DNA of 64,000 bases from Propionibacteriales bacterium. Its GTDB lineage: Bacteria > Actinomycetota > Actinomycetes > Propionibacteriales > Nocardioidaceae. The notes under the pieces were generated by a model. It searched no databases. It was not told where the DNA came from and was given only the letters and a program-made list of their open reading frames with translations. Location: NCBI GenBank assembly GCA_009377795.1, contig WHTJ01000010.1:1-64000 (forward strand), read 5' to 3'. Each line of letters starts with the position of its first letter. The first letter of the stretch is position 1. This document shows positions 1,116 through 27,834 of this stretch, piece after piece. Position numbers and translations under genes: made by a program.

Positions 1116-1649
1116 TCAGCAGTCGTAATACCCCGTCGTCCCCGTTCTCGTTCCGTCGGAGGCCTCGCCCGGGAGCACGCATGTCGTTTCGAGGCCGAGC
1201 ACCTTCGTGAGCCGGCCGAACGCGAGATGGCGGCCGATCACGAGCGTGAGCTCGAGGATCTCGCCGTCGTCGAAATGGGTCCGGAGACGGTCGAAGAGCT
1301 CTGGTCCGATGTGGTGGTGGTCGAGGGCGAAGCGCTCGGCGTACTCGATCGCGAGCCGCTCACGCTCGGAATAGATCTCGCTGCGCTCCGGATGCTCCGC
1401 GACGTGGTCGTAGAACTCCTGCGTGAGCCCGTGCCGCATGCCCGATGCGGCGCGCCAGCCCAGTCAAACCGGACAGTCGTTGATCTGCGCGATGCGCATG
1501 CGTACGGCCTCGCGCTCGCGAACCGACAGCGTCATTTGTCCGTAGACGACCTCGCGGAGTTGGACGCTCACCTCACCCAGATGCGGTCGCAGCTGCCAAA
1601 CGCGGTCGACCTCGGAGCCCTCGCCCTCGGGGACGTCGATGTGGGCCAT
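1116..1649 (-). CDS. AhpD/carboxymuconolactone decarboxylase-like selenoprotein, in-frame UGA (Sec62)
   Basis: The frame reads as one 177-residue CMD/AhpD-fold protein if the TGA at 1464-1466 is decoded. Residues 1-61 end in RIAQINDCPV, the TGA is residue 62, and the frame continues LGWRAASG then a typical CMD second half (RERLAIEYAERFALD). Family members usually carry a CxxC redox pair here, so the TGA replaces the second cysteine and gives C59-P-V-U62. A perfect 7-bp hairpin begins 13 nt after the TGA. A paralogue at 25030-25524 has the TGA at the same residue. It is the last gene of a SnoaL / AroQ-like / CMD operon. Peroxidase, disulfide reductase or decarboxylase roles are all possible. 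The alternative is a nonsense-mutated pseudogene, disfavoured by the intact downstream frame and the paralogue. Confidence 0.8.
1433..1451 (-). other. Putative bacterial SECIS hairpin
   Basis: In the mRNA (minus strand) GCCGCAU, loop CGGGC, AUGCGGC forms a perfect 7-bp stem. The loop starts 19 nt after the UGA at 1464-1466 and has a G at its second position. Distance and loop composition fit bacterial selenocysteine insertion elements (in E. coli fdhF the SelB-binding loop lies about 18-23 nt after UGA). Folding was done by eye. Confidence 0.6.
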
Positions 1650-1679: not shown

Positions 1680-2189
1680 TCACATGAGCGGCCAGAAATC
1701 CTGCGGGGGAAGGGAGTCGCCGTCGTCGAGCATCGCCACCATGCCGATGAGGGCGGCGGTGTAGGAGTGCTTCCGCATCCCGTGCACGGTGCCCACGACG
1801 ATCTCCGAGAAGGCGGACTCTAGCTTGTTCAGCGCTGGGTTGGCGAGATGCACCTCCAGGGTGGGCAGGCGGCTGTCCTGGATGGCATTGCGCAAGGCGA
1901 AGCCGTACGGGGTGGAGCCCGCGGGGTTGACGAGGAGGCCGTCGAGGTCGGCGGCGTTCTCGTGGAGCCACTCCAGGAGCGCGCCCTCGTAGTTGGACTG
2001 AAACTGGTGAACGACGACGCCGAGCGCCTTGGCGAGCGCGTCGACTCGTGCCTCGAGGTCCGGCAGGGTCATCCCGGTGCCGTAGCGGGCCGGGTGACGG
2101 TTTCCGAGGTTCGACAGGTTCGGGCCGTTGATGCACCCGATGATCCACTCCCGGTCGGTCGTGCGCACGGCGGTGCGAAGTTCGGTCAT
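1680..2189 (-). CDS. Type II dehydroquinase (AroQ)-like protein with altered active site
   Basis: The 169-residue product has the type II 3-dehydroquinate dehydratase fold signature: INGPNLSNLG near the N-terminus, the loop NRHPARYG with the usual Arg and Tyr, QSNYEG, LVNPAG and EVHLANP with the conserved His. The substrate-binding THTS stretch is STPYG here and the usual R-E-x-F-R segment is absent. It is therefore unlikely to be the shikimate enzyme and may dehydrate or isomerise a related cyclic intermediate. I place the start at 2189, where GGGAG lies about 6 nt upstream, rather than at the ATG nine codons earlier. It sits between a SnoaL gene and the selenoprotein gene in a leftward operon. 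Confidence 0.75.
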   Translation of the reverse strand: MTELRTAVRTTDREWIIGCINGPNLSNLGNRHPARYGTGMTLPDLEARVDALAKALGVVVHQFQSNYEGALLEWLHENAADLDGLLVNPAGSTPYGFALRNAIQDSRLPTLEVHLANPALNKLESAFSEIVVGTVHGMRKHSYTAALIGMVAMLDDGDSLPPQDFWPLM

Positions 2190-2219
2190 GGCGGCTCCCT
2201 GTCGGCGTGCTGTCATTCC

Positions 2220-2729
2220 TCAAGCGCCCGGTGTCGGCACGCTTCGCTTGTCGGGCTCGTGCCGCTCCACCCAGCACCAGTCGAAGTCCTCGAGCCCCAG
2301 GCAGCCGCTCATCTCCATGCGCCGCTGGTGGATGCGCCAGCCGTCGTCGGTCCGCAGGAGCCGGTCGACGTAACGGATGCGGAGCTCATCGATTCTGCCG
2401 TCCCAGCGTTCGTGCCAGGCGATCGCGTAGGTGAGCGCGTAGGTGAGCGCGCTGGCCTCCTCGTGGCTGTATAGCTCGATGAGCATCTGGCCGAGCTGAT
2501 GGTGGGTCCGACGCCACGACGACTGGCTGCGGGCGATGCGGGCGCGGAACGCGTCACGTCTCAGAACGGTCCCGCCGCCGGACATGCGACTGCGTCCGTA
2601 ATCGGTGACACAGTCCTCTGTGAACAGGGCGGCGACGGCGTCGATGTCGTACTCGTCCAGGCGGGCACAGTACGACCCGAGCACATCCGCGATGCGCTGC
2701 CGCTCGACCAACTCGGTGGGGGTGTCCAA
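2220..2729 (-). CDS. SnoaL/NTF2-like (nuclear transport factor 2 family) protein
   Basis: This 169-residue protein begins with the helix-rich start typical of SnoaL-like dehydratase/isomerase domains (RQRIADVLGSYCARLDEYD) and ends with the beta-sheet segment IRYVDRLLRTDDGWRIHQR. Family members catalyse dehydration, isomerisation or cyclisation of hydrophobic ring substrates, or lack known activity. The TTG start is supported by GGGGAGG about 6 nt upstream. It is the first gene of the SnoaL / AroQ-like / selenoprotein operon. It shares its promoter region with the divergent thiolase-like gene and an operator-like site. Confidence 0.8.
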   Translation of the reverse strand: MDTPTELVERQRIADVLGSYCARLDEYDIDAVAALFTEDCVTDYGRSRMSGGGTVLRRDAFRARIARSQSSWRRTHHQLGQMLIELYSHEEASALTYALTYAIAWHERWDGRIDELRIRYVDRLLRTDDGWRIHQRRMEMSGCLGLEDFDWCWVERHEPDKRSVPTPGA

Positions 2730-23242: not shown

Positions 23243-24079
23243 ATGGACGGCGAGGGTCGGTTGTCAGGGATGGTCGCGCTCGTCACCGGGGCGGCGCGGG
23301 GTCTCGGACGCGCCATGGCGATACGGCTGGCGCGGGACGGAGCGGACGTCGTCGGGCTGGACCTGACGAAGAAGGTGGAGGTGTTGTCCTACGACCTGTC
23401 CACGCCGGACGAGCTGTCCGAGACCGGTCGCCGCGTCGAGGCGTTCGGGAGGCGCAGCCTCATGATCGGCGAGGTGGACGTGCGCGAGCTCAGCGCCGTG
23501 CGACAGGCCGTGGACCAGGCCCTCGACACGTTCGGGCAGATCGACATCGTCTGCGCGAACGCCGGTATCAGCGCCACCCGCAAGCTCACCTGGGAGATCG
23601 AGGAAGACGAGTGGCAGGCGATGCTCGACGTGAACCTCACCGGGGTGTGGCACACGGTGAAGGCGGTGGTCCCCGCAATGTTGGAGCGGGACGCGGGCGG
23701 CGCGATCATCATCACGAGCTCGGTCGCCGGCGTCCGCGGGACGCCATACGCGTCGGCGTACGTCGCCTCGAAGCACGGCGTGGTGGGGCTCATGCGCGCC
23801 CTGGCGAACGAGCTCGGGCCGCATGGCGTCCGGGTGAACAGCGTCGCGCCCTCGGCTGCCGACACGCCGATCGCTCGCCGTCCCGATCTCAGCCAGCAGG
23901 TCGGTGGGACCGACGACGTGGATGCCCTGTTCCGGAAGATGAACCTCATGCCGGTTGGGTTGCTGCCACCGGAGGATGTCGCCGATGCGGTGGCCTGGCT
24001 CGCGTCGGACGAGGCGCGCTACGTCACCGGCGCCGTCCTGCCGGTGGATGCCGGGACGGTCGTGCGTTTCAGCTCTTAG
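23243..24079 (+). CDS. Mycofactocin-coupled-type SDR family oxidoreductase
   Basis: The 278-residue SDR has TGAARGLGRAMAIRLARDGADVVGLDL near residue 14. It then has an insertion of about 15-20 residues (KKVEVLSYDLSTPDELSET) before VEAFGRRSLMIGEVDV. That insertion is characteristic of the mycofactocin-dependent SDR group of actinobacteria, in which NAD(H) is tightly bound and electrons leave through mycofactocin. NAGIS, SSVAG and the catalytic YVASKHG are present. ATG 23243 follows AAGGAAGGGAG. It overlaps the convergent gene by 11 bp. The substrate is probably a hydroxylated ring or alcohol. Confidence 0.85.
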   Translation: MDGEGRLSGMVALVTGAARGLGRAMAIRLARDGADVVGLDLTKKVEVLSYDLSTPDELSETGRRVEAFGRRSLMIGEVDVRELSAVRQAVDQALDTFGQIDIVCANAGISATRKLTWEIEEDEWQAMLDVNLTGVWHTVKAVVPAMLERDAGGAIIITSSVAGVRGTPYASAYVASKHGVVGLMRALANELGPHGVRVNSVAPSAADTPIARRPDLSQQVGGTDDVDALFRKMNLMPVGLLPPEDVADAVAWLASDEARYVTGAVLPVDAGTVVRFSS

Positions 24080-25022
24080 GCACGATCCAGGTGCAGTGGT
24101 CCTTCGGAGAGGCGGGAGGGACGACGGTCCGCAGCGGCGATTGTCCCTGCTCGCGCGGATAGGTCATGAGGTTGGCCGTGCAGCGGCAGCAGTAGTACGG
24201 CAGCTGTCTCCGCCCGACGGTCCACGGCGCCTCGTCCGCTGTCACGCCGTAGCGGTCCACGCCCCGGCGCCACATCCGCAGGCCGCTGCTGCAGTCGAGC
24301 TCGATCGTGACGTGTTTCTCGTCCTCGACGAGGGTGCCCTCCATCGTGTGAGCGCGGAGGAGGGTGAGGACCCGCTGGAGGAGGTCGGGGGTCCCGCGCC
24401 GCTCGGGGTCGACGATCGAGTCGATCGCGTCGGCGGCGTACGACGAGATCCACAGGTGGGCCGCGTGCATCGTCGCCTCCCCGTGCTCCCGGGCGATGTG
24501 CGTGCTGTACAGCGCGCAGGTGTGTACGAGGCGGTCCTGGCACAGCGGCCATTCGACGAGGAGCTCCCGGGTCTTCGCCGCGGCGCTGGCCGCGTCACCC
24601 GCTTCGAGCTGTGTCACGAGATGCGCGCATGCGGTGGCGCATGCGTATGGCGACCCGTTGCGCAGTGGCCCGGTGGCTTCGAACCCTTCGACCCGGTGAA
24701 GGACGTCGAGGAGGCGCTCCGCGCGCCCGTCGTCCGGACCGTCGCTCACACGTTGCAGGGCGGGGCCGAGGGGGGCGCCTCCGATCCACGAGTTCGCACG
24801 GGTGAGCGCCTTCGGCCCATGCTCGGCGAGGAGGAAGGCTTGGTAGCCGGCTCCGAGCCTGGCGAGGCGGTGCTCGAGCGCGAGCCATTCCTCTTGGAAT
24901 GCGACGGCGATGTCCCTTGCCGTGTCGAGATCGCCCTCGTCGAGGGCACTGAGGATCCTGGTCGGCAGCGGCTCAAGGACGGCTGCAGTGCCTGAGTCGG
25001 TCCATCCCTGCTCCTGACTCAT
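24069..25022 (-). CDS. Conserved-looking protein of unknown function with Cys-rich C-terminus
   Basis: I do not recognise this 317-residue protein. The N-terminal two thirds look all-helical (LDEGDLDTARDIAVAFQEEWLALEHRL; ATACAHLVTQLEAGDAASAAAKTRELL). The last quarter is beta-like with the clustered cysteines PYYCCRCTANL and a terminal KDHCTWIV. There is no signal peptide or membrane segment. Its start lies 8 bp beyond the selenoprotein stop, so it is co-transcribed as the last gene of the leftward operon. The Cys cluster (CCRC plus HC near the end) could bind a metal or take part in thiol chemistry with the neighbouring CxxU protein. That is inference only. Confidence 0.65.
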   Translation of the reverse strand: MSQEQGWTDSGTAAVLEPLPTRILSALDEGDLDTARDIAVAFQEEWLALEHRLARLGAGYQAFLLAEHGPKALTRANSWIGGAPLGPALQRVSDGPDDGRAERLLDVLHRVEGFEATGPLRNGSPYACATACAHLVTQLEAGDAASAAAKTRELLVEWPLCQDRLVHTCALYSTHIAREHGEATMHAAHLWISSYAADAIDSIVDPERRGTPDLLQRVLTLLRAHTMEGTLVEDEKHVTIELDCSSGLRMWRRGVDRYGVTADEAPWTVGRRQLPYYCCRCTANLMTYPREQGQSPLRTVVPPASPKDHCTWIVPKS

Positions 25023-25029
25023 GTCGTCT

Positions 25030-25524
25030 TCACCGCCCGTCGTGAGGGAGCTCGCAGATCTCGTCCAGTCCCAGGATCTTCGTGAAGCGCCCGAACCCGA
25101 GGAAGCGAGCGAGCAGTACGGTCAGTTCCACGATCTCCTGGTCGCTGAAGTGGCTCCGGAGCCGCTCGAAAAACCGCAGGCCGAGGTGGCGCTGGTCGAG
25201 CGCGAAGCGCTGCGCGTATTCGATCGCGAGCTTCTGCCGGTCGGTGTACAGGGGGCTGTCCCGATAGTCGGCCACCTGCTGGTAGTGCTCCTCGGTGAGC
25301 GCGTCGGCCGCGGACCGCGACCCTCGTCGGACGTTCAGTCAATAGTGGCAGTCGTTGATCTGGGCGATGCGCATGCGCGCGACCTCGATCTCCGAGGACG
25401 GGAGCACGCTGCCCTCGGTGACGGCCTCGCGGAAGCGCCGCTCGACATCGGCGAAGGCGGGAGCGAGCTGCCAGACTCGTTGCGCCTCGGTGCCTTCACC
25501 GGGTGGGATGTCAATATTCGCCAC
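25030..25524 (-). CDS. AhpD/carboxymuconolactone decarboxylase-like selenoprotein, in-frame UGA (Sec62)
   Basis: Reading through the TGA at 25339-25341 gives a 164-residue CMD/AhpD-fold protein. Residues 1-61 end in RIAQINDCHY, residue 62 is the TGA, then LNVRRGSRSAADALTEEHYQQVADYRDSPLYTD continues in frame into LAIEYAQRFALD. The family normally has CHYC here, so the codon gives C59-H-Y-U62. The TGA residue number is identical to that of the paralogue at 1116-1649. A GGUCGCG/CGCGGCC stem follows. It lies downstream of a SnoaL gene, as does the other copy, and ahead of an unknown Cys-rich protein. Redox catalysis (peroxidatic selenocysteine) is the likely role. No selA, selB or selC is in the window. 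Confidence 0.82.
25306..25322 (-). other. Putative bacterial SECIS hairpin
   Basis: In the mRNA GGUCGCG, loop GUC, CGCGGCC forms a 7-bp stem with one U-G wobble. The loop begins 23 nt after the UGA and its first base is G, which fits the bacterial SECIS pattern. A smaller alternative hairpin (CGAC, loop GAGG, GUCG) starts closer to the UGA. Folding was done by eye. Confidence 0.5.
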
Positions 25525-25546
25525 GCGATCCTCCTTCGTCGTCTGC

Positions 25547-26071
25547 CTATCGTCCGAGCAGCTCGTGGCGTCGTGGCCCGGTCACCACGTCGTCCTGCCT
25601 TCGTGCGCCCTGTATGAAGAGATCCGGGGGAACCGTGTCGAGCGTCCACGGCTCCATAGTGATCGAGCCGCTCCAGTCATGGACGATGATGCGTTGGGCG
25701 ATGCGCCACTCGCCATTGCGTCGCTCGAACCGATCGATGTACCTGCCGGCGAGCACCTGCACCCGCGGATCTTCGACCTTCTGCTGATACGACATGAAGC
25801 AGGCCTCGGAGAGTGCGGTGTCCCCCTCGAGTTCGACGAGGTGGTTCGCGATGTCGTGACGGCACCAGCTGGTCTCGGCGAGCTTCGCGGCGACGATCGT
25901 CTTGGCGAACTCCCAGCCGTTGCTTTCGTAGATGCCATGCTTGTCGATGGCGTCCGGATGGTACGCGGAGCGGATGAGGTCCTCGTCGCAGCGGTCCACG
26001 CCGCGGCAGTACCGCATGAGCACCTCGTAGATGGCCTGCTTGTCGAGCAGGGCTTGCACGGATGGGTCCAT
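25547..26071 (-). CDS. SnoaL/NTF2-like protein (own start inside the EamA-SnoaL frame)
   Basis: The 174-residue domain starts ALLDKQAIYEVLMRYCRGVDRCDED and is the close paralogue of the SnoaL at 10166. It has the usual late strands GRYIDRFERRNGEWRIAQR. A strong GAGGAG box lies 6 nt before the ATG at 26071, so it is probably made as a separate protein. The same frame is open upstream into the EamA gene with no stop, so a fusion product is also possible. It is directly followed by the selenoprotein gene. Confidence 0.78.
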   Translation of the reverse strand: MDPSVQALLDKQAIYEVLMRYCRGVDRCDEDLIRSAYHPDAIDKHGIYESNGWEFAKTIVAAKLAETSWCRHDIANHLVELEGDTALSEACFMSYQQKVEDPRVQVLAGRYIDRFERRNGEWRIAQRIIVHDWSGSITMEPWTLDTVPPDLFIQGARRQDDVVTGPRRHELLGR

Positions 26072-26995
26072 GGCTTTCTCCTCAGGCGGTGGCGCGCCGG
26101 TCAGGGGGTTGAGCGTGCATGGTGGATCCTGCGGTACGGGTCTCGTCCAGTTCACCAGCGCAATGCCTACGACCACGATGGCGCCCGCGACGAGCAGCAG
26201 GGGGTCGAGCGGCTCGCCGAGCACGAGCACGCCCAGCGCCGTGGTCACGACGGGCACGGCGAAGATCCAGGAGCTCACGACGGTCGCCTCGCCTCGACGC
26301 AGGAGGACGAAGCTCAGGCCCATGCCGACGACACCCGCGAAGACGCCCGCCCAGATGGTCGCGAGCACCAGCTGACCGCGCCACTCCACCGTGCCCCCGC
26401 TCATGAGCGCGACGGCCCCGAGCGGCGGGAGCGCGTAGAGATTCATCCAGCACATGAAGGGGATGAGCGGCACGTCGGCTGGCAGGCGCTTGAACAAGAT
26501 GCTGCTCACCGCCCACACGGCGGCGGCCAACAGCACCAGCGCCATGGCGGACCGCGGCGTCGCCCCTGCCTTGAGCTGGCCGAGTACGAGCAGGACGACA
26601 CCGAACCAGCCCAGCGTCATCCCCATGATGCGCCGCGTGGACAGCCGCTCGCCGAGGAACGTGCGCGCAGCGATCGCGACCATGAAGGGCTGGGTGTACA
26701 GCAGCACGGCGCTGAGACCGGCGCTCGCGTCCGCCATGCCGAGGTTCTGCGCGGTGAAGAACAGGACGATCTGCGTCATGCCGACGACGAACGCCCAGCG
26801 GTGGAACCGCAACGTCATGACGCGCGGCCCGCGGGGCTGGACGATCAGCACTACGGCGCTCAGGAGCGCGGTGGCGGTGAGAACCCGAAGGAAAACGAAC
26901 GGCATCGGGTCGGAGTGCTCCAAGCCGACCTTGATGGAGATCAGCGCGGTGGCCCACGCCAGCCACAGGGCGACGAGGACGACGGGCGTGGACAT
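25547..26995 (-). CDS. EamA/DMT-family transporter, in-frame with SnoaL domain
   Basis: Residues 1 to about 285 form an EamA drug/metabolite transporter: about ten hydrophobic segments in two repeats (for example VVLVALWLAWATALISI at the start and LLLVAGAIVVVGIALVNW at the end). Such proteins export or import small organic molecules through the inner membrane. No stop codon separates this from the SnoaL domain; a linker of about 25 residues (WTRPVPQDPPCTLNPLTG...) joins them, giving 482 residues in total. Because the SnoaL has its own ribosome binding site, both a fusion and separate translation are possible. The start at 26995 has a weak ribosome binding site. Confidence 0.75.
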   Translation of the reverse strand: MSTPVVLVALWLAWATALISIKVGLEHSDPMPFVFLRVLTATALLSAVVLIVQPRGPRVMTLRFHRWAFVVGMTQIVLFFTAQNLGMADASAGLSAVLLYTQPFMVAIAARTFLGERLSTRRIMGMTLGWFGVVLLVLGQLKAGATPRSAMALVLLAAAVWAVSSILFKRLPADVPLIPFMCWMNLYALPPLGAVALMSGGTVEWRGQLVLATIWAGVFAGVVGMGLSFVLLRRGEATVVSSWIFAVPVVTTALGVLVLGEPLDPLLLVAGAIVVVGIALVNWTRPVPQDPPCTLNPLTGAPPPEEKAMDPSVQALLDKQAIYEVLMRYCRGVDRCDEDLIRSAYHPDAIDKHGIYESNGWEFAKTIVAAKLAETSWCRHDIANHLVELEGDTALSEACFMSYQQKVEDPRVQVLAGRYIDRFERRNGEWRIAQRIIVHDWSGSITMEPWTLDTVPPDLFIQGARRQDDVVTGPRRHELLGR

Positions 26996-27042
26996 GGCGG
27001 TGCGCGCAAGCCGCGCGACTCCACCGCCAGATCTCCACCCGG

Positions 27043-27834
27043 TCACTCCTGCGGGGTCTCCCAGCCGACAAGTGACATGCCACCGTCGAGGATGAGCGTG
27101 TGGCCCGTGATCCACGACGCCTCGTCGCTGAGGAGGAATCGGGCGGCACTCGCCGTGTCGGTGATCGCCCCGAGACGCCCGATCGGATAACCCTGCAGGA
27201 CCGAATCCTCCACACCGTCGTAGAGCTTTCTCGCGAAGCGGGTCTTGACCACGGCCGGTGCGATCGCGTTCACCCGCACCGCGGGTGCCAGCTCGAGCGC
27301 GAGCTGGCGAGTCATGTGGATGAGCGCCGCCTTGCTCACGTTGTAGAAGCCGAGGTTCCGAGCGACGCGGACACCGCCCATGGACGACACGTTCAGGACC
27401 ACGCCGCCATGCTCGGCCATCCACGCCTTGTAGGCGAGCTGTGTCCACGCGAAGGGAGCGATCACGTTGACGCCCATGATCTTGTCGGCGACCGTGACGT
27501 CGCCGTCGATCATGGGTCCATAGTGCGGGTTGATCCCGGCGTTGTTCACGAGCAGGTCGAGGGAGCCGAAGCGCTCGAGCGTCTGCTCCACCGCGGCCTC
27601 GCGGTGCGCCTCGTCGTCGGATGCTCCGGGCACCGCCATCACGTGTTCCGACGCCAGGGCGGTCACCGCCTCGTCGAGGCTCTCCTTCGAGCGTCCCGTG
27701 ATGCACACGCGTGCGCCGTTCCGCAGGAGGTCCTTGGCAATGCCGAAGCCGATGCCGCGCGATGCGCCGGTGATGAGGGCGACCGAGTCGCGGAGGCCGT
27801 GCCCGTCGCTTTCGGTTTTCATGGTGTCAGCCAT
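27043..27834 (-). CDS. SDR family oxidoreductase
   Basis: The 263-residue SDR has ALITGASRGIGFGIAKDLLRNG near residue 19, LLVNNAGIN near 95, the Ser in LNVSSMGG near 147 and the catalytic FYNVSKAALIH near 160. It ends WITGHTLILDGGMS. The ATG overlaps the TetR stop (ATGA), so it is co-translated with the regulator. It is one of seven intact SDRs in the window; the substrate is unknown. Confidence 0.9.
   Translation of the reverse strand: MADTMKTESDGHGLRDSVALITGASRGIGFGIAKDLLRNGARVCITGRSKESLDEAVTALASEHVMAVPGASDDEAHREAAVEQTLERFGSLDLLVNNAGINPHYGPMIDGDVTVADKIMGVNVIAPFAWTQLAYKAWMAEHGGVVLNVSSMGGVRVARNLGFYNVSKAALIHMTRQLALELAPAVRVNAIAPAVVKTRFARKLYDGVEDSVLQGYPIGRLGAITDTASAARFLLSDEASWITGHTLILDGGMSLVGWETPQE

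Follow-up and report, generated by a model that had tools for sequence, protein, structure and literature searches.

A TGA codon interrupts the reading frame of a CMD/AhpD-like gene in the 64,000-nucleotide stretch of Propionibacteriales DNA analysed here (the window), and its presence could mark a broken gene or it could represent a codon that is read through as an amino acid. The gene (Sec-AhpD gene 2; 25033..25524, minus strand), recognized by ORF reading, a profile match and a fold model, has 164 codons, a GTG start and, 5' of that start, the Shine-Dalgarno sequence AAGGAGG (25530..25536, minus strand). Its frame, from 25524 to 25030 on the minus strand, reads VANIDIPPGEG...RMRIAQINDCHY-TGA-LNVRRGSRS...ELPHDGR-TGA; the terminal stop is itself a TGA (codon 165, 25032-25030), and the single internal stop is codon 62 (25339..25341, minus strand), as the initial annotation of this locus had described it. 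The internal TGA lies in the motif C59-H-Y-U62, where it aligns with the second Cys of a CxxC, and we propose that it encodes selenocysteine. The product matches the CMD profile (PF02627) at 25.8 bits against a cut-off of 23.

The window holds a paralogue with a TGA at the same codon, which likewise agrees with the initial annotation. Sec-AhpD gene 1 (1116..1649, minus strand), identified by ORF reading and alignment to gene 2, starts with ATG, has 177 codons plus a stop, and carries its TGA at codon 62 (1464..1466, minus strand, by the same alignment) within the motif C59-P-V-U62. The two proteins are 50–51% identical, and their loci are 24 kb apart. A coding-potential scan of stop codons found seven TGAs in the window with coding-like sequence in frame on both sides. 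Five of these (at 2222, 1682, 28526, 36055 and 54509) terminate ordinary genes and have the following gene in the same frame, leaving those at 25341 and 1466 as the sole TGAs inside genes in the window. That only two in-gene TGAs occur, at the same codon of both genes, agrees with the earlier argument that the codon was kept despite divergence and exceeds what random nonsense mutation would give. The same pattern makes a sequencing or assembly error extremely improbable: the window does come from a draft assembly (4.58 Mb, 182 contigs, 96.8% complete), but the error would have had to strike the homologous codon of two distant genes while sparing all other in-gene positions in the window.

Neither gene contains another internal stop or a frameshift, so the frame-disrupting indels that would have counted against recoding are not there, and identity between the two genes is 50.8% before the TGA and 49.5% after it. 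Past the TGA, differences between the genes fall 32/27/47 over the three codon positions, and GC3 holds at 0.88–0.90. The pN/pS ratio was 0.64 downstream of the TGA and 0.57 upstream, compared with 1.37 (minimum 1.09) in a control of shuffled codon pairings, and the NG86 dN/dS was about 0.5 downstream and 0.39 upstream. The initial annotation had expected a downstream dN/dS well below 1; constraint like that of the upstream half was found, but not a value that low, and the GC bias and divergence of this gene pair are too great for a low dN/dS value. The similarity of the two halves is what translation of both would produce.

These data bear directly on the possibility that the two genes are recent pseudogenes, each with a nonsense mutation at the Cys codon of CxxC that leaves a truncated peptide of 61 residues. 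A TGA is one step from TGC or TGT (from TGC by a single transversion) and is the easiest stop to acquire at a Cys codon, and the simple dN/dS is only about 0.5. Against this, the TGA sits at the same codon of both paralogues even though their identity has since fallen to 51%, no other lesion accompanies it, the paralogues are equally similar on either side of it, and GC3 and pN/pS indicate continued coding constraint. Together with the complete Sec machinery and the TGAs at the same column in five other genomes (both described below), this leaves loss of function very unlikely.

We next considered the residue that codon 62 would supply. Among the 91 homologues with a readable aligned residue, 84 have Cys at this column and seven, including both window genes, have TGA. 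The column is the second position of CxxC, and in a 30-sequence alignment it is one of only three invariant columns (Ala54, Cys59 and the Cys/TGA column 62). A family Cys at the TGA position is therefore as previously claimed; the sequence CHYC that had been quoted for the family is not, as relatives read CxFC, CVVC, CVAC and the like. One could still imagine that UGA is read as a standard amino acid, through a reassigned code such as TGA=Trp or by near-cognate reading, and the frame is indeed open under any code that treats TGA as a residue. However, TGA terminates other genes in the window and gene 2 itself, relatives never have Trp at this column, and the genome encodes tRNA-Sec, SelA, SelB and SelD; we regard this explanation as even less probable than pseudogenization. 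On the evidence given for each, we rejected a reassigned code, a sequencing error and a pseudogene.

Across 396 sampled genomes of the phylum and 342 of the family, homologues were mostly uninterrupted Cys forms; more distant homologues (L126-L130) from five other genomes of the phylum had a TGA at this column. The Cys column of these AhpD-like genes shows the motifs CEF-U, CVF-U and CGY-U. A tRNA-Sec with a UCA anticodon was present in four of the five genomes, and the fifth is 77% complete; these genes are likely further unannotated selenoproteins. No close orthologue with the TGA was found among 90 other same-family genomes with a strong match, all of which were stop-free in frame, and the genomes of named species that were scanned yielded distant homologues only.

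Selenocysteine at codon 62 demands a decoding system, whose absence from this genome had been named as grounds for abandoning the idea; all four components are present. A tRNA-Sec with a UCA anticodon (contig C39, 3644-3735) scored 74 bits against a gathering score of 47. Directly downstream of it lie SelA (438.5 bits, cut-off 267.9) and SelB (298 bits, cut-off 242.25), and SelD is encoded on contig C125 (383.7 bits, cut-off 125). On C39 (locus L025, 53-6854), FDH-beta-like, NrfD-like and Mrp-like genes lie 5' of tRNA-Sec, selA and selB; the FDH-beta-like Fe-S protein scores below its model's cut-off, and the NrfD-like membrane protein was assigned by inspection. A selenium-dependent FDH cluster with selA-selB has been demonstrated experimentally in Actinomycetospora chiangmaiensis (PMC7176365), and here, too, FDH-type Fe-S and membrane subunits precede tRNA-Sec/selA/selB. 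An FDH alpha subunit with a TGA would have provided an internal positive control, but, unlike in that cluster, none was found here: the contig end cuts the cluster, which begins at the beta-subunit-like gene. Three molybdopterin proteins of the genome lack an internal TGA.

Bacterial SECIS (bSECIS) elements have a stem of 4–16 bp, a loop of 3–9 nt with a G in its first two positions, and a distance of 16–37 nt from the UGA (PMC13188914). The hairpin previously noted after the gene 2 TGA is indeed present (GGUCGCG-GUC-CGCGGCC; 25306..25322, minus strand), and the paralogue has its own (GCCGCAU-CGGGC-AUGCGGC; 1433..1451, minus strand). Both putative elements fit these rules, with 7-bp stems, loops of 3 and 5 nt beginning 23 and 19 nt past the UGA, respectively, and, in gene 2, G first in the loop. 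The five more distant TGA homologues have hairpins of 6–7 bp, 17–18 nt away. As a control, a 7-bp hairpin was found in the same place in six of the 84 Cys homologues, so that the bSECIS rules discriminate weakly, and such hairpins also follow 13% of all codons in these homologues; the chance rate in GC-rich sequence is thus about 7–13% of places. Fold energies relative to shuffled sequences ranged from z of about 0.2 to -1.75 across the hairpins, and no RNA family was found in the window with Rfam. Since its fold energy (z about 0.2) was not significant, we counted the gene 2 hairpin as weak support only, and hairpins alone are weak support for Sec decoding.

We conclude, with high confidence, that UGA codon 62 is read as selenocysteine by the host Sec system and that gene 2, like its paralogue, encodes a selenoprotein with a C-x-x-U site. 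This reading follows from the same-codon TGA in the paralogues, the Cys/TGA column, the Sec machinery, the TGA homologues elsewhere and the downstream constraint, and also from the SECIS-like hairpins, the nesting of the sister paralogues among Cys forms and the AhpD fold with its CxxC site. Gene 2 thereby shows four features by which bacterial selenoproteins are recognized: a UGA at a catalytic Cys, Sec machinery, a bSECIS stem-loop and UGA homologues in other organisms. Conserved UGA recoding, as first suggested for this locus, is supported by the machinery, the intact frame and the five other genomes. The codon would be decoded by the genome's own tRNA-Sec and SelB, aided by the hairpin just 3' of it in the coding sequence.

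In a phylogenetic tree, the two paralogues are sisters (100/96 support) inside a group of Cys proteins, which is most simply explained by a TGA older than the duplication. Three changes in the Sec label are required on this tree, in which several long branches make deep placements unsure. The simplest history suggested by these sequences is that Sec first took the place of Cys in the ancestral gene, that this gene then duplicated, and that both copies retained the UGA while they diverged to about half identity.

An AlphaFold2 model of the gene 2 product, folded with Cys in place of Sec, was confident and all-helical (pLDDT 87.4), and its best PDB matches were Pseudomonas aeruginosa PA0269 (2ijc, 2o4d, 7xw1; TM 0.72/0.82) followed by other AhpD-like proteins. 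With its profile score above cut-off and an AhpD fold with CxxC (here CxxU), gene 2 falls within the CMD (PF02627)/AhpD-like superfamily. Its active-site residues are Glu47, 12 residues before the motif, Cys59, Tyr61, Sec62 and Arg66, four after it. The relay of PA0269 consists of Glu36, Cys48, Tyr50, Cys51 and His55 (PMC3141380); the first four correspond to Glu47, Cys59, Tyr61 and Sec62, so that gene 2 retains both the Glu and the redox pair, whereas Cys51 and His55 of PA0269 are replaced by Sec62 and Arg66. Gene 2 consequently lacks the full signature of a canonical AhpD peroxidase (Glu, CxxC and a proton-relay His at +4), and Arg occupies the relay-His position in at least 90% of the 30 aligned homologues.

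Reports of CxxU selenoproteins in the AhpD/CMD superfamily date back to 2005, and the current catalogue includes such proteins (PMC1088965, PMC2398784, PMC13188914). Like these CMD-like/AhpD-like proteins (PF02627, TIGR01926, COG2128), gene 2 has Sec for the second Cys of CxxC and a SECIS-like stem-loop after the UGA; unlike them, it belongs to another subfamily, with Arg for His four residues past Sec and with Cys proteins of the same phylum as nearest relatives. It scored 34.5 bits against the TIGR01926 model (peroxidase-related enzyme, the AhpD-like selenoprotein class; cut-off 81.8). The best NCBIfam match was NF053654 (GroundWater_YciW, 'YciW-related (seleno)protein'; E 3e-18, residues 49-147), but at 66.2 bits against a cut-off of 310 gene 2 is not a member, and no NCBIfam model matched the protein at cut-off. 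By sequence comparison, gene 2 probably represents an uncatalogued subfamily of the already known CxxU CMD/AhpD selenoproteins. Under the standard code, a coding-score gene caller called only the downstream halves of both Sec-AhpD genes; given this and the lack of an NCBIfam match at cut-off, automatic annotation would probably truncate such genes or call them pseudogenes.

From the model, the gene 2 product is best interpreted as an AhpD-like thiol/selenol redox protein. It would be small and all-helical, and one of its helices would begin with the C59-H-Y-U62 redox motif. If it works as AhpD does, Cys59 and Sec62 would alternate between a selenenylsulfide and the reduced thiol/selenol pair. 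Such a protein could act as a peroxidase or as a thiol-disulfide adaptor and might help to protect the cell or to transfer electrons during the oxidative catabolism encoded nearby.

The surroundings form a large catabolic region with acyl-CoA ligases, acyl-CoA dehydrogenases, thiolase-like, SDR, SnoaL-like, ChsH2-like and F420/LLM genes, several of these assignments being by inspection only. Directly upstream of gene 2, a single frame (25547-27046, minus strand) encodes an EamA transporter (two repeats) fused to a C-terminal SnoaL_4 domain, and directly upstream of gene 1 lie a type II dehydroquinase-like gene and a SnoaL_4 gene (1680-2729, minus strand); both Sec-AhpD genes thus follow a SnoaL-like domain. 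Directly downstream of gene 2 is a gene for a 317-aa protein (24069-25022, minus strand) without a Pfam or NCBIfam match. AroQ, the unknown protein and SnoaL-like neighbours were not found beside homologues within 1.5-kb flanks, a comparison that left out the SnoaL of the 25-kb locus.

This setting raises the question of whether the selenoprotein instead catalyses a reductive or isomerising reaction on a substrate of the catabolic pathway, in the manner of the AhpD-fold debrominase Bmp8, rather than peroxide or thiol-disulfide redox chemistry. Both copies lie amid the catabolic genes, Bmp8 was among the structural matches and the relay His is Arg throughout most of the subfamily; however, the Bmp8 match is distant (13–14% identity), a dehalogenation marker was not identified and the neighbours are not common to homologues in the 1.5-kb flanks. 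We consider such a role unlikely. A still more doubtful extension is that an uncatalogued Arg-type AhpD subfamily gained Sec and that the pair here serves a substrate-directed redox step (e.g., a reductive, Bmp8-like one) in aerobic catabolism; if true, it would make an aerobic catabolic pathway selenium-dependent.

Our preferred reading, a C-x-x-U selenoprotein of AhpD type, has its own consequences: if the two Sec-AhpD genes are expressed, the surrounding catabolism could depend on selenium. It would also add a new AhpD subfamily to those that use Sec and provide a clean case of Sec retained in both copies after a gene duplication.
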